A stretch of DNA of 64,000 nucleotides from Nocardiopsis potens DSM 45234 (lineage in GTDB: Bacteria > Actinomycetota > Actinomycetes > Streptosporangiales > Streptosporangiaceae): positions 1 to 64,000 of the forward strand of contig NZ_ANBB01000047.1 of assembly GCF_000341105.1 (NCBI RefSeq), in the 5' to 3' direction. The translations under genes and the position numbers were made by a program. Below the pieces are notes generated by a model. The model saw only the letters and a program-made list of their open reading frames with translations, ran no database searches and had not been told where the DNA came from. Below are positions 11,082-49,717 of the stretch, in pieces (positions within the stretch are counted from its first letter, which is position 1; each line of letters begins with the position of its first letter).

Positions 11082-11101
11082 TAGAACCGAATTCCGTTCT
11101 A
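11082..11101 (-). promoter_or_regulatory. Operator-like palindrome before the MBL-SDR unit
   Basis: TAGAACCGAATTCCGTTCTA is palindromic except at one symmetric pair. The outer half-sites TAGAAC and GTTCTA match KstR half-sites, but the spacer is 8 bases rather than the 2 of the TNNAACNNGTTNNA motif. It lies 30 bases before the preferred start and next to a TAGAGT -10-like hexamer. Confidence 0.55.
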
Positions 11102-11126
11102 CTCTACGGTGGAGCACTGCCCCGAT

Positions 11127-11155
11127 CACCGGGTCCTCTGGAGGGAGGCCCGGTG
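11127..11155 (-). terminator. Hairpin, probably the original ltp2 operon terminator
   Basis: CACCGGG (11127-11133) pairs with CCCGGTG (11149-11155), with a nested CCTC/GAGG stem. Before the tnpB insertion it lay ~55 bases downstream of the ltp2 stop codon, so it is best read as the terminator of that minus-strand operon. Confidence 0.6.
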
Positions 11156-11242
11156 TTTCAAGGCCGGGAGGGACCCAAGCGGTAGGCCTGTACTTTTCGC
11201 GTTCTGCTTACTCACGACTCCCTCTTGAGCCATGCTTTCCGT

Positions 11243-12496
11243 ATGCGGACGGCGTACAAGGTCCGGGCCTACCCGGACTCCGAGCAGGCGGCCCAGCTGG
11301 GCCGCACGTTCGGGTGCGTGCGCCTGGTGTGGAACAAGACCCTCGCGGAGCGCCACCGCGCCTACCACCAGCACGGCACCAAGACGTCGTATAAGCAGAC
11401 CGACCGGGCGCTGACGGGGTGGAAGAAGACCACCGACCTGGCGTTTCTGTCCGAGGTATCCTCGGTGCCGCTGCAGCAGGCCCTGCGCCACCAGCACACC
11501 GCGTTCGCCAACTTCTTCGCCGGACGCGCCCACCATCCCAGGTTCAAGAACCGTGACGGCCGCCAGTCGGCGCACTACACCAGGTCGGCGTTCCGCCTCA
11601 AGGACGGGTGTCTGTTCCTGGCCAAGCAGAAGAGGCCGCTGCGTGTGGCGTGGTCGTTCGACGATGTCGACATCGCGTCCCTGAACCCGACCATGGTCGT
11701 GGTGTCGCGGGAACCGGACGGCCGGTTCTATGTGACGTTCGCCGTCGAGACCGAGGACCCCGAACCCGCCCCCGACACCGGCGGCGAGGTCGGCATCGAC
11801 CTCGGAGTGAAAGAATTCGCGACCCTGTCCACCGGGGAGAAGATCGCCAACCCCGGACACCTGGACCGCAAGGCCGAGCGGCTTGCCCGCTACCAGCGAA
11901 TGACGGCCCGAAAGCAGCGCGGCTCGAACAACCGCCGCAAGGCGAAGCGCAAGGTCGCCGCGGCGCACAGGAAGATCCGCCATGCCCGCAACGACTTCCT
12001 GCACAAGACCTCGACGCGGATCGTCCGCGAACATGACGTGATCGTCATCGAGGACCTCAACGTGCACGGTATGACCGTCTCCGCGCGCGGAACCGTCAAA
12101 GAACCAGGCCGGAACGTCCGCGCCAAGGCCGGGCTGAACCGTTCGGTGCGCGATGCCGCCCTGGGGGAGTTCCGCCGACGGTTGGAATACAAGGCCGCCC
12201 GCGCGGGCCGCACCCTGGTTGTGATCGACCGGTGGTTCCCCTCTTCCAAGACGTGCTCGCGGTGCGGGCACCTGCTCAAGAAACTCTCGCTGAACACCCG
12301 GGCATGGACGTGCCCTGCCTGCCGCACCCGCCACGACCGGGACCTGAACGCGGCGAAGAACATCCTTGCGGCTGGTCGAGTCGCAGCCCGTGAACACGCG
12401 GGTGATGCCTGTGGAGCCGGTGTCAGTCGGCAAGGGTCCTCCCTTCCGCGGTCGGCGACGAATCAGGAAACCGCTGCCGTGAGGCAGTCCGCGTAA
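11243..12496 (+). CDS. tnpB: TnpB, RNA-guided nuclease of an IS605-family element
   Basis: A 417-residue TnpB (OrfB_IS605 type). The N-terminal helix-turn-helix/WED-like part (MRTAYKVRAYPDSEQAAQL) precedes a split RuvC domain with catalytic Asp186 (GIDLG), Glu270 (VIEDLNV) and Asp367 (DRDLNAAKN). The zinc finger CSRCG...CPAC lies between the last two. TnpB family members are guided by an RNA from the element's right end to cleave DNA next to the target motif, here expected to be TTAC. ATG 11243 matches the usual family N-terminus; an upstream in-frame ATG at 11225 is less likely. All catalytic residues are intact. Confidence 0.93.
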   Translation: MRTAYKVRAYPDSEQAAQLGRTFGCVRLVWNKTLAERHRAYHQHGTKTSYKQTDRALTGWKKTTDLAFLSEVSSVPLQQALRHQHTAFANFFAGRAHHPRFKNRDGRQSAHYTRSAFRLKDGCLFLAKQKRPLRVAWSFDDVDIASLNPTMVVVSREPDGRFYVTFAVETEDPEPAPDTGGEVGIDLGVKEFATLSTGEKIANPGHLDRKAERLARYQRMTARKQRGSNNRRKAKRKVAAAHRKIRHARNDFLHKTSTRIVREHDVIVIEDLNVHGMTVSARGTVKEPGRNVRAKAGLNRSVRDAALGEFRRRLEYKAARAGRTLVVIDRWFPSSKTCSRCGHLLKKLSLNTRAWTCPACRTRHDRDLNAAKNILAAGRVAAREHAGDACGAGVSRQGSSLPRSATNQETAAVRQSA

Positions 12497-12557
12497 GCGG
12501 AACCGTCCTGTCAGAGGCGGTCGGACTCCCCCTCCTTCAGGAGAGGGAGGAAGTCAA
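12400..12557 (+). ncRNA. Predicted omega (guide) RNA scaffold of the tnpB element
   Basis: In IS605 elements the guide RNA overlaps the tnpB 3' end and runs through the right end into flanking DNA. Here the stretch contains hairpins CCGC-GTAA-GCGG (near 12490) and CTCC-TTCA-GGAG near the end. Its 3' guide would start at 12558 (TCCCGGCTCAGC...), i.e. the ltp2 3' end. Position by family analogy only; the 5' end is not visible. Confidence 0.35.
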
Positions 12558-13723
12558 TCCCGGCTCAGCACCAGGCCGCTGGTGGGCACCCCCGTTCCTG
12601 CGGTGACCAGCACGTTGTGCACGGACGGCAGCTGGTTGGCGGCGGTGCCGCGGATCTGCCGGACCGCCTCGGCGATGCCGTTCATGCCGTGGATGTAGGC
12701 CTCGCCGAGCTGGCCGCCGTGCGTGTTGACCGGCAGCCGCCCGCCGATCTCCAGCCCGCCGTCGGCGGCGAAGTGCCGGGCCTCGCCGCGGCCGCAGAAC
12801 CCCAGCTCCTCCAGCTGGACCAGGACGAACGGGGTGAAGTGGTCGTAGAGCACGGCGGTCTGCACGTCGCCGGGCCCCAGCCCGGACTGGCGCCACAGCG
12901 CCTCGGCGACCACGCCCATCGCGGGCAGCCCGGCCATGTCGTCGGAGTAGAACGAGGTCATCGTCTGCTGGCCGGGCGCCGACCCCTGGGCGGCGGCGGA
13001 GACCACCGCGGGCGGGCGGCGCAGCGACCGGGCCCGCTCGGCGGAGACCACCACCAGCGCCACCCCGCCGTCGCTCTCCTGGCAGCAGTCGAGCAGCCGC
13101 AGCGGCTCCGCGATCCACCGCGAGGCCTGGTGCTCCTCCAGGGTGATCGGCCGGCCGTGGAACCAGGCCGCCGGGTTGGTCGCCGCGTGCCGGCGCGCCG
13201 CGACCGCCACCCGGCCGAAGTCCTCGCTGGTCGCGCCGGAGGCCGCCATGTACCGGCGGGCGCTCATCGCCACCCACGCGGCCGGGGTGACCAGGCCGAA
13301 CGGCACGTGCCAGCTCATCTCCAGGCCCTGGGAGGACGGGTTGCGGTGCGCCTCGGGCATCGCCCGGCCGAACCGGCGCCCGCTGCGCTCGTTGAACGCC
13401 CGGTAGGCCACCACCACGTCGGCCTGGCCGGTGGCCACCGCCATCGCGGCCAGGGCGACGGTCGCGCAGGCCGCGCCGCCGCCGTAGTCGATCCGGCTGA
13501 AGAACCGGAGCGGCCCGGCCCCGATCTCCCGGGCCACGGCGATCTCGGAGCTGGAGTCCTGGGAGAAGGTCACCATGCCGTCCACCTCGGACGGGGCCAC
13601 CCCGGCGTCGTCCAGCGCGTCCAGCACGGCCTCGGCGGCCAGCCGCAGCTCGGTGCGGCCGGACTCCTTGGAGAACTCGGTGGCGCCGATCCCGGCGATC
13701 GACGCCGCGCGCGACAGCCCCAT
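12554..13723 (-). CDS. ltp2: Ltp2, steroid side-chain aldol lyase (thiolase-like lipid-transfer protein)
   Basis: A 389-residue SCPx-type thiolase-superfamily protein matching M. tuberculosis Ltp2 across its length: IVGIGATDFS-like start (SIAGIGATEFSKESGR), YGGGAACATV, RWIAEPLRLLDCCQE, LYDHFTPF, LEELGFCG, and GGRLPVNTHGGQLGEAYIHG. Ltp2 with the ChsH2 DUF35 domain performs the retro-aldol cleavage that releases propionyl-CoA from the sterol side chain. The start overlaps the ChsH2-ChsH1 stop (TGATG). The TGA stop codon is supplied by the right end of an inserted tnpB element; before insertion the gene would have ended GAG-TAA one codon later in meaning (Glu instead of Asp). Confidence 0.93.
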   Translation of the reverse strand: MGLSRAASIAGIGATEFSKESGRTELRLAAEAVLDALDDAGVAPSEVDGMVTFSQDSSSEIAVAREIGAGPLRFFSRIDYGGGAACATVALAAMAVATGQADVVVAYRAFNERSGRRFGRAMPEAHRNPSSQGLEMSWHVPFGLVTPAAWVAMSARRYMAASGATSEDFGRVAVAARRHAATNPAAWFHGRPITLEEHQASRWIAEPLRLLDCCQESDGGVALVVVSAERARSLRRPPAVVSAAAQGSAPGQQTMTSFYSDDMAGLPAMGVVAEALWRQSGLGPGDVQTAVLYDHFTPFVLVQLEELGFCGRGEARHFAADGGLEIGGRLPVNTHGGQLGEAYIHGMNGIAEAVRQIRGTAANQLPSVHNVLVTAGTGVPTSGLVLSRD

Positions 13724-15012
13724 CAGCCCTCCCCCTCTTCCACGGTGACGGTCCCGGTGACGTGCGGGCCCAGCGAGTTGGTGCCGCGCACGGAGATCTC
13801 GGTGGCGGTGCCGGAGCGCTCCGCGGTGCCGGTGAGCAGCATCGAGTCCCCGGCGTGGTTGGGCGCGCCGAGCCGGATCGCGATCCGGCGCACCCGCGCG
13901 GCCGGACCGGCCCAGTCGGTGGCGTACCGCTGCACCAGCCCCTGGGTGGTCAGGATGTTCATGAAGACGTCGGCGGCGCCCTGGGCACGGGCCGCACCGG
14001 GGTCGTGGTGCACGTTCTGGAAGTCCCGGGTGGCCAGGGCCTGGGCGGTGATCGAGGAGCGGGTGAGCGGCAGGTGCAGCGCGGGCAGCGGCTCGCCGGT
14101 CCCCGGCCGCCACTGCGGCAGCACCAGGTCGGAGTCGACCCGCTCGAACTCCAGCCGCACCGGCATGCCCACGTGCACCTCGGCGGGGTCGGCGCCGACG
14201 ATGCCGCCGGTCACCCGGACCCCCTCGGGCAGCTCCACCACCGCGACGGCGAACGGCGCGGTGCGGCCGGGCACCGGCGGGTGGTGGTGCACCGTGTAGC
14301 TGTACACGGTGCCCGCCCCGGACGCGGTGACGTGGTCGGCCCCGGCGGACCGGCAGTGCGGGCAGAGCGGGCCGGGCGGGTGGCGCAGCGCCCCGCACCC
14401 GGTGCACCGGCGGATGCGCAGCTCGCCGCGGGCGGTGCCGTCCCAGAAGAAGTCGGTGTCGGCGCTGCGCGCGGGTCGCAGCGGGTGGCGCTCGGGTCGG
14501 GCCGGGCGCTGCGGCGGCGACTCCGGCGGGGCGAACTTGAGCACCCGGAACATCATCTCGCCCACCTGCTCCTCCCCGGAGTACCAGCAGGTGTGCCAGG
14601 TGAGGAAGTAGCCGGTGCCCATCGCGGTGCGCTTGGGGCCGGACAGCGAGCCGAACCGGGTGGTGGAGCGGAGCTCCTCGCCGAAGCGGAGCGGGCGGTG
14701 GTAGGTCTGGGCGCAGTCGGTGGCCACCACCCCGGTGCAGCCGTTGGCGTCGAACCACTCCAGCAGCCCGTCCACGGCCGACCCGGTCCCGGGCGGCTCC
14801 GGGTCCAGGCCGCGCATGGTCCACACCTGGAGCATCGCCGGCGGGGCCTCGCCGGCCTCGAGGTAGCGCGGGTTGGCGTCGCCCATGGCGTGCAGCCAGT
14901 GCCGGGCCGCCGGCGCGTTCACCGGGTCGGCGGCCCGGCCGCCGTCGACCTCGCCGAGGGCGCGGGCGGCCTCGGCCAGGGCGGTGAGCTCCTCGGGCGG
15001 GGATTCGGTCAT
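13723..15012 (-). CDS. ChsH2-ChsH1 fusion: MaoC hydratase / DUF35 / MaoC
   Basis: A 429-residue protein with three modules. A hot-dog MaoC-like domain spans ~25-165. A DUF35 zinc ribbon plus OB fold spans ~185-300, with Cys203, Cys206, Cys217 and Cys220. A C-terminal MaoC domain spans ~312-429 and carries the hydratase-type Asp330/His335 (RDFQNVHHDP). In M. tuberculosis these are two proteins, ChsH2 (Rv3542c) and ChsH1 (Rv3541c), forming the hydratase for the three-carbon side-chain acyl-CoA, with DUF35 partnering Ltp2. Gene order (FadE29, this, Ltp2) matches the igr operon. AAAGG lies 6 bases before the ATG. The substrate is inferred from orthology. Confidence 0.9.
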   Translation of the reverse strand: MTESPPEELTALAEAARALGEVDGGRAADPVNAPAARHWLHAMGDANPRYLEAGEAPPAMLQVWTMRGLDPEPPGTGSAVDGLLEWFDANGCTGVVATDCAQTYHRPLRFGEELRSTTRFGSLSGPKRTAMGTGYFLTWHTCWYSGEEQVGEMMFRVLKFAPPESPPQRPARPERHPLRPARSADTDFFWDGTARGELRIRRCTGCGALRHPPGPLCPHCRSAGADHVTASGAGTVYSYTVHHHPPVPGRTAPFAVAVVELPEGVRVTGGIVGADPAEVHVGMPVRLEFERVDSDLVLPQWRPGTGEPLPALHLPLTRSSITAQALATRDFQNVHHDPGAARAQGAADVFMNILTTQGLVQRYATDWAGPAARVRRIAIRLGAPNHAGDSMLLTGTAERSGTATEISVRGTNSLGPHVTGTVTVEEGEG

Positions 15013-45341: not shown

Positions 45342-45369
45342 ACGGCGAAAACCCGCATAATGGGTGGAA

Positions 45370-45458
45370 ACCGACAGGGGAGCGCTTCGGCGCTGAGAGT
45401 GCGGAGACCCCGCAGACCCTTAGACACCTGATCTGGATCATGCCAGCGAAGGAAGTCG
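45370..45458 (+). promoter_or_regulatory. TPP riboswitch (THI element)
   Basis: The conserved thiamine pyrophosphate aptamer is clear: CAGGGGAGC, GCGCTGAGAGTGCGGAGACC, then ACACCTGATCTGGATCATG and CCAGCGAAGGAAGTC. A CATAAT -10-like hexamer (45356-45361) is placed to start transcription just before it, inside the gap after glgP. It precedes ykoE by ~80 bases, so thiamine pyrophosphate probably represses the ykoEDC transporter genes. Confidence 0.95.
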
Positions 45459-45540
45459 TGTGTTCCACCCGGAGGAGTCCGCACCGGGTGCTCTTGGCCT
45501 GAGCCCTCTCGTGTCCTCACCGACGCGAAGGGACCCGTTC

Positions 45541-48490: not shown

Positions 48491-49717
48491 TCAGACGGCC
48501 GACCCGAGTTCTTCGCTCATCTTGGCGAGGAGGTTCCCGGCCGCGTTGCGGTCGCGGTCGTGGACGGCGCCGCAGCCGGGGCAGGCCCAGGTGCGGTCGG
48601 CCAGCGCCAAGGCGCGGTTGACCCGCCCGCAGTTCCCGCAGGTCTTGGAGGAGGGGAACCAGCGGTCGGCCTTCCAGACGCGGGAGCCGTACCAGCCGGC
48701 CTTGTACTCCAACTGGCGGACGAACTCTGCGAACCCGGCATCGGAGACGGCGCGGGCCAGCCTGCGCTTCCTGGCCATGCCCTTGACGTGCAGGGTCTCC
48801 ACCGCGACGGCCGACTTGGTTCTCGCCAGCCTGGTGGTGGTCTTGTGCAGGAAGTCCCGCCGCCGATCGGCCACCCGCAAGTGCAGCCGCCCGACGCGCT
48901 CGCGCGCCTTGGCCCTGTTCCTGGAGCCCTCCGCGCTCCGGGCCAGTCTGCGGCCGGCGCGCTTCAGCGCCCGCTGGGCGGCCTTCAGCGGTCTGGGGGC
49001 GCAGATCTCCTCGGTGGTGCCGTCGCTGTTGCGAACGGTGGCGAAGGTCTTCAGGCCCAAGTCGATCCCGCAAGCGGGAGCGCCATCGGGCACTTGGCGG
49101 CGCTTGTTGACCTCATCGCGGTCCGCCTCGATCTGGAAGGAGACCCACCACCGCCCGGCCTGCTCGCGGATCGTGGCGCCGAGGATGTGCGCCCTTGCGG
49201 TGGCCATGCGGTCGGTCAGCCAGGACATGTCCTCGCGGGTGGCGACGTCGCCGATCGCCGGGAGGCGCACGGTGCGGGTGTTGAGCGGTCTGGCGCGGTC
49301 GGCGTCGTAGCGGAACCGGGAGCCGTGCTTGCGTTTGCGCCACCTCGGCCACCCCAGCCTCGCGCCCTTGCGCTTCCCGGCGCGGGAGGCGAAGTAGTTC
49401 TTCAGACCGGCCGCCCGGACCCGGCACGCCTCCTTGGGGATGCGGGAGGACAGCCCGCCCTGGGAGAACGAGGGGTAGCGCTTCGGGTGGGCGGCGCGCC
49501 ACTCCCTCTCCAGCGCCGGGGCCGACCACGGCACCTTGGTCAGGTCCTCACCGGTGATGCCGTAGCTCTCCTCGGCCTTGCGCTGGGCGTACTTCTTCTG
49601 CACGGCCTCCAGGCAGAAGTTCTCCACCGCCCGCGACAGCCCGCAGTGCCGCCCCATGAGGACCGCCTGCTCGCCGGTGGGCGCCAGCTCGAAGCGCAGC
49701 CCCTGCTTATGGCTCAC
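48491..49717 (-). CDS. tnpB: TnpB, RNA-guided nuclease of an IS605-family element
   Basis: A 408-residue TnpB divergent from the copy at 11243. RuvC catalytic residues are Asp219 (CGIDLGLKTFA), Glu307 (VAVETLHVKG) and Asp389 (VHDRDRNAAGN); the zinc finger CGNCG...CPGCG is intact. GTG 49717 overlaps the stop of the small upstream ORF (GTGA), with GAGG eleven bases before. A longer frame to 49825 is unlikely because of this coupling. Its guide RNA would derive from the right end and read into the 3' end of ykoC. Confidence 0.92.
   Translation of the reverse strand: MSHKQGLRFELAPTGEQAVLMGRHCGLSRAVENFCLEAVQKKYAQRKAEESYGITGEDLTKVPWSAPALEREWRAAHPKRYPSFSQGGLSSRIPKEACRVRAAGLKNYFASRAGKRKGARLGWPRWRKRKHGSRFRYDADRARPLNTRTVRLPAIGDVATREDMSWLTDRMATARAHILGATIREQAGRWWVSFQIEADRDEVNKRRQVPDGAPACGIDLGLKTFATVRNSDGTTEEICAPRPLKAAQRALKRAGRRLARSAEGSRNRAKARERVGRLHLRVADRRRDFLHKTTTRLARTKSAVAVETLHVKGMARKRRLARAVSDAGFAEFVRQLEYKAGWYGSRVWKADRWFPSSKTCGNCGRVNRALALADRTWACPGCGAVHDRDRNAAGNLLAKMSEELGSAV

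Follow-up and report, generated by a model that had tools for sequence, protein, structure and literature searches.

A solo tnpB element over the ltp2 stop codon of Nocardiopsis potens, and the recurrent rebuilding of stop codons by its relatives

In IS608 of Helicobacter pylori, the element ends are recognized through a hairpin and a guide, the guide being GAAT, and the right end closes on the tetramer TCAA. The IS608 target is TTAC, and ISDra2 uses TTGAT both as target and as target-adjacent motif (TAM) (PMC8612924); a guide tetranucleotide is also mentioned in PMC7290912. An IS605 element of Sulfolobus islandicus has TTTAA as target and TAM and TTCAC as its right-end motif (PMC11043419), a source whose available part makes no mention of stop codons at insertion sites. 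The IS1341-type group is defined by carrying tnpB only (PMC9956272), and IStrons splice out of RNA (PMC4227781). Here we analyze a stretch of 64,000 nucleotides from Nocardiopsis potens DSM 45234 (contig NZ_ANBB01000047.1; the window), in which a tnpB element lies over the stop codon of ltp2, a lipid-transfer protein/thiolase gene. Coordinates are positions in the window, on the plus strand unless marked otherwise.

The element occupies 11130–12557 (1428 bp), with ends set by a second genomic copy, by the copies of genome G117 and by an empty site in a sister genome. Homology with the second copy (L002, 83–84% identical) runs from 11144, across a TTAC at 11208–11211 that is also present in L002, to 12557, where it stops right after TCAA. 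The nine copies in G117, eight of them 91.6–94.8% identical to the ninth and one partly covered, lose homology at TCAA or at one chance-matching flanking base beyond it, in agreement with the right end given by a first-pass annotation of this DNA. An alternative right boundary, TCA/A, had been prompted by the sister’s GAC-TGA and was dropped, since the G117 copies end at TCAA. At the left, 7/8 covered G117 copies start right after (T)TCAC, at a (T)TCAC/CT junction (L127 is offset), and the window aligns with them as ATCAC (11125–11129) followed by CGGGTCCTCTGGAGGGAGGCCCGG. Because of these copy ends, and because homology with the empty site of sister genome G002 resumes at 11128, the left junction falls between ATCAC and 11130. 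Subterminal hairpins are found at both ends. The left end (11130–11175) has a hairpin whose position is conserved across copies, and the stretch 11125–11180 folds as DNA with z −2.97. The right end (12528–12557) consists of the hairpin CCCCCTCC-TTCA-GGAGAGGG followed by AGGAAGTCAA, presumably the 3′ end of the omega RNA scaffold; the fold of 12515–12557 had an energy no better than shuffles. The right-end motif with its TTCA-type loop, which served as the search pattern, is common to the copies, with changes in the stem alongside, and many copies have GAAT ahead of the right hairpin.

Between these ends lies an intact tnpB (11243–12496, ATG to stop, 417 aa), antisense to ltp2 and matching NCBIfam guided_TnpB. 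Its product has the RuvC-type motifs GIDLG, IEDLN and HDRDLNAAKN and a zinc ribbon, with matches to PF01385 (E 1.8e-34), PF07282 (E 1.8e-24) and NF040570 (345.5 bits, cut-off 100), that is, OrfB_IS605 and Cas12f1-like TNB domains. The RuvC motifs line up with the TnpB-type chain 9yyg_A, and the protein is homologous over most of its length to chain 8bf8_A, “RNA-guided DNA endonuclease TnpB” (E 1.2e-53), which we take to be the ISDra2 TnpB of Deinococcus radiodurans. The element holds tnpB only, and a search for a Y1 transposase (PF01797) gave no match in the window’s genome (G000); at least one was present in 6/10 genomes searched, this one, without any, among the ten. The element belongs to the IS200/IS605 superfamily and is of IS1341 type, with tnpB alone between two ends, an ordinary member of a type already known. 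It has no Y1 tnpA of its own, as a complete IS605 would, and its target is not the TTAC of IS608. Independently of any placing rule, the 7/8 G117 copies and the empty sites show insertion on the 3′ side of a short fixed target that is not duplicated. Two further features touch tnpB. Rfam family RF02743 (Saccharopolyspora sRNA 389, “antisense”) matches 11430–12024 on the minus strand, antisense of tnpB, at 225 bits; antisense tnpB may be what this RNA family represents. At 48525–48743 on the minus strand lies another tnpB-like stretch, diverged to 68% identity as DNA.

The ltp2 frame (12554–13723, minus strand; NF005892) is open throughout and now ends GAT-TGA. As the first-pass annotation had recognized, this TGA belongs to the element, being the reverse complement of TCA at 12554–12556 in its terminal TCAA (12554–12557; TTGA on the minus strand). 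We compared ltp2 3′ ends in six genomes of the genus, the window’s own included (G003 and G005 were not read). In the sister G002, whose ltp2 protein is 94% identical and which is without the element, the gene ends CGG-GAC-TGA, and homology with the window resumes at ...CCCCGATCA / TGATCGGG / TGATCGGGG, corresponding to 11128 and leftwards. G001 and G004, also with no element at the site, have a different short ltp2 tail ending in TAG. Among 80 relatives from named genomes, the ltp2 stop was TGA in 52, TAG in 21 and TAA in seven. The native ltp2 stop is TGA, as in G002. It is the TGA within GTGAT, the reverse complement of the target pentamer ATCAC. By the family rule set out below, the gene would have ended GAG-TGA before insertion, with CCCCGATCAC-TCCCGGCTCAGC as the corresponding empty site, so that the Glu-to-Asp change at the last residue, proposed earlier, also follows from the corrected junction (GAG-TGA before, GAT-TGA now). 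G002 has GAC-TGA where GAG-TGA is deduced, and therefore one further base differs between the two lineages. Read by its letters, antisense insertion on any NNR-TGA stop rebuilds TGA in the same frame, since the target TCAY and the right end TCAA share TCA, and changes only NNR to NNT. At its other end, the ltp2 start lies in a TGATG overlap (13721–13725) with the preceding gene.

We then asked where related copies sit. The first set comprised 60 copies with the right-end motif from the window’s taxonomic family, the window and L002 included (37/341 genomes had a match); these are 60 of 64 listed places, four near contig starts being left out, and three more G117 places were counted and unlisted. 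The second set added 37 copies, of which other families contributed 30; it was drawn from 45 listed places, eight of them already in the first set. Flanks of 240 nt on each side were called with a codon model trained on the window, at a standard score threshold of 10. The model put 78/78 segments of four genes in the right frame, those genes being part of its training, and as a model from one genome it was applied to other high-GC genera. For the background, 20 stretches of 20 kb were taken from 20 host genomes; counting both strands, they contain 4603 TCAY sites. A left end could be placed in 34/60 and 10/37 copies by the hairpin plus a TCAY at the expected place (L158 by hand). The left tetramers of these 44 copies were TCAC in 22 and TCAT in 22, TCAY itself being part of the placing rule. 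The insertion target of the family is TCAY, with entry on its 3′ side; the opposite strand reads RTGA. Right flanks differ between copies, and only L338 and L339 of the 97, both of them stop calls, have a homologous flank; the insertions are therefore otherwise separate. For copy L002 (1440–2869), the insertion point is a GTG codon within a coding frame on the minus strand, which the element lengthens by six codons; it has probably cut a gene.

Rebuilt stop codons are enriched among these sites. In 24 of the 60 right flanks of the first set, a minus-strand gene has the TCAA-rebuilt TGA as its in-frame stop; three others are minus-strand genes in the Met/Val frame, none is in the third frame, eight are coding on the plus strand and 25 non-coding. 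The second set gave nine stops, one Met/Val frame, none in the third frame, seven plus-strand and 20 non-coding flanks, and its 30 copies from other families gave eight, one, none, five and 16, respectively. Only 120/4603 background TCAY sites (2.6%) fall at such a stop (Fisher p 1e-21 for the first set and 5e-7 for the second). Minus-strand coding right flanks are in the stop frame in 24/27 and 9/10 cases. The counts were 24/60 and 12/37 at a score threshold of 5, where two of the 60 right flanks fell in the third frame, and 18/60 and 6/37 at a threshold of 20, the background having been scored at 10 only; with L338 and L339 counted once, the second set has 8/36. The suggestion, made from this locus in the first place, that a tnpB element can settle at a gene end at almost no cost through a stop swap thus recurs across the family.

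The left flank can carry a gene start. A minus-strand gene starting in the RTG frame was called there in 14/34 and 5/10 placed copies, one of which, L157, has a right flank coding in the same frame and so marks a cut gene. Since the background rate of this call alone is 21%, mostly from Met/Val codons inside genes, we use it only in combination with the right flank. Stop and start occur together in 7/34 copies (L146, L147, L150, L152, L159, L160 and L161) and 2/10 (L324 and L330), compared with 53/4603 background sites. Empty sites bear this out for two of them. All 19 element-free relatives of the L147 site have a stop-start overlap (GTGA in 17, ATGA in two), as do all 19 of the L150 site (ATGA in 18, GTGA in one); these were the best-matching relatives made into loci, from 54 and 65 genomes searched. 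In all 38, the TGA closes the upstream gene and the RTG opens the downstream frame; the 300 and 150 nt read contained no stop.

GGAGG or a similar sequence often stands in the left end 4–8 nt ahead of the RTG, on the gene strand. Anti-Shine-Dalgarno (anti-SD) pairing reached dG ≤ −5 kcal/mol in 26/34 and 4/10 copies, and mean dG was −7.5 and −3.9 in the two sets compared with −2.6 and −1.6 for shuffled sequence; the copies are related by descent, and these counts are not independent. The L147 element gave −9.5 against a mean of −3.1 for the displaced native sequences, and L150 gave −10.2 against −6.4 (19 relatives each). Several left ends are palindromic, so that both strands pair, and those of L152, L177 and L161 pair strongly on the gene strand only. 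In the window, AGAGGA (11134–11139, minus strand) stands 4 nt ahead of GTG, in a stretch with an anti-SD dG of −5.8 (shuffle p 0.017); the left flank here is non-coding, with no gene for such a sequence to serve. A Shine-Dalgarno sequence as a general property of the left end was not upheld, at 4/10 in the second set and 3/9 outside the window’s family.

We consider it highly probable that a solo IS1341-type tnpB element inserted at 11130–12557 over the ltp2 stop, 3′ of ATCAC, and that the TCAY/TCAA geometry would make insertions at stops and gene junctions nearly neutral, so that they are retained. A Y1 transposase acting in trans would have placed the element as single-stranded DNA 3′ of ATCAC, antisense and exactly over the stop, turning ...CGG-GAG-TGA into ...CGG-GAT-TGA. 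The TCA common to target and right end probably reflects the same hairpin-guide recognition at both ends, by analogy with IS608. At ATGA or GTGA overlaps the left flank keeps the downstream gene’s RTG, and many copies have in their left end a Shine-Dalgarno-like sequence, of putative function, 4–8 nt ahead of that start. Insertions at stops and overlaps would probably be nearly neutral and kept by selection or tolerance. Finally, TnpB with its omega RNA, carrying a guide copied from the gene end (presumably 12558–12573, the right flank, antisense to the 3′ end of ltp2), would cut empty alleles and so restore the element, in the manner reported for ISDra2 (PMC8612924). The ends, the TCAY target, the empty sites, the rebuilt stop, the kept start and the enrichment at gene ends and starts are directly supported.

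Several observations weigh against this account. Transposition in trans and cleavage by TnpB we infer, and because no Y1 transposase was found in the window’s genome the element may be stranded. Right flanks scored non-coding are numerous (25/60 and 20/37), and in three plus one copies a gene in the Met/Val frame was probably cut. L127, L149 and L175 have the left hairpin and no TCAY at the expected place. In G002 the target site reads CTCAG, not TCAC, a one-base difference between the lineages that falls in the target itself. For the L152 site, the sole clear relative, L399, reads ATGA at the junction, yet the gene downstream is another one, and the search for relatives of the L324 site gave no clear relative or ortholog. 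The −5 mark for anti-SD pairing was failed by 8/34 and 6/10 copies and passed by 3/9 outside the window’s family; the Shine-Dalgarno-like feature is tied to certain lineages and could have arisen as a side effect of the left-end palindrome.

A simpler account, which we regard as possible though somewhat doubtful, needs no special niche: copies hit TCAY at random, genic insertions are lost, and stops are simply among the sites that are tolerated. Some excess at gene ends is indeed expected from chemistry and purifying selection by themselves, numerous right flanks are non-coding, and the background method cannot tell harmful sites from tolerated ones. Even so, restricting the background to sites non-coding on both sides or at a stop leaves 120/1005 at stops (12%, a rough figure), compared with 24/60 and 9/37 copies, and 7/34 placed copies sit at stop-plus-start sites, where losing the ribosome-binding site would usually be harmful. 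Guide-directed homing, in which gene junctions are cut by TnpB and the element is copied into them during repair, is very improbable: judged by its motifs TnpB is intact, and an empty allele would match the guide segment, but right flanks differ in all but L338 and L339 of the 97, which means that the guide does not choose new sites, and the feature common to the sites is TCAY, a transposase-type target. The version of the first-pass annotation, an element at 11212–12557 in a TTAC target with a native GAG-TAA stop and a host terminator outside it, can practically be discarded. Joining 11211 to 12558 does yield an in-frame GAG-TAA, and TTAC and TCAA are known IS608 sites, but homology to other copies spans the TTAC up to the left-end hairpin and the G002 empty site resumes at 11128 and ends GAC-TGA. 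An element starting at 11212 would also be without that hairpin, which PMC7290912 describes as indispensable. The TTAC is internal, the target being ATCAC here and TCAY in the family, and the seeming restoration of GAG-TAA is a coincidence of this internal motif. The hairpin that had been read as a terminator split from its operon is inside the element, aligned with the left ends of other copies. The annotation had named as its own refutation an element-free relative ending GAT-TGA, and G002 supplies one save for a single synonymous base (GAC-TGA).

A broader proposal comes to within a little of an even chance in our estimate: that this tnpB clade has ends fitted to operon grammar. The target would be the complement of the ATGA/GTGA overlap, the right end would donate a stop, the target would keep the start and the left end would donate a ribosome-binding site, splitting coupled genes without breaking them and letting the element spread in gene-dense genomes, and the stop swap could extend beyond this clade. 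To the question of how several solo tnpB copies persist where genes are dense, an overlap-like target and a stop-rebuilding end offer a simple and testable answer. A stop-start target also predicts where tnpB elements, and their effect on translational coupling, should be sought, and relatives may invade tightly packed operons with little harm. The boundaries of such elements need to be set from copies and empty sites, given that an internal motif may happen to give the false impression of a restored stop. Neither the stop-rebuilding geometry nor the stop-start niche was found in the literature searched, which was covered in part, with most subscription papers outside it, and their novelty is provisional.

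Nearby, an operator-like palindrome, TAGAACGGAATTCGGTTCTA (11082–11101), lies between the element and the next gene, which encodes an MBL-fold hydrolase; similar sequences occur at the same place in G002, G001 and G004. Elsewhere in the window are a 5S rRNA gene (120–237) and a TPP riboswitch (45366–45471).

Compared with known systems, the element is built like other IS1341-type and IS200/IS605 elements, with one tnpB between subterminal hairpins, and it enters 3′ of a short fixed sequence that is not duplicated; it differs in that the TCAY target and the TCAA end share TCA and that many copies lie at RTGA stops or junctions. Its right-end tetramer is that of IS608, whereas its target is ATCAC, or TCAY in the family, and not TTAC; by its letters, the TTAC/TCAA pair of IS608 would replace an antisense TAA stop with a TGA at an identical offset. 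TTTAA and TTCAC of the S. islandicus IS605 hold TTA and TCA at the same offset and by their letters would likewise exchange TAA for TGA, and the stop swap may thus be general in IS605-type elements. As in ISDra2, the guide is expected beside the right end, and the TTGAT target and TAM of ISDra2 set it apart. IStrons likewise are tnpB-type elements rendered harmless to the gene they enter, but they act by RNA splicing, whereas here the gene is spared at the DNA level, with its stop rebuilt and, at overlaps, the start kept.

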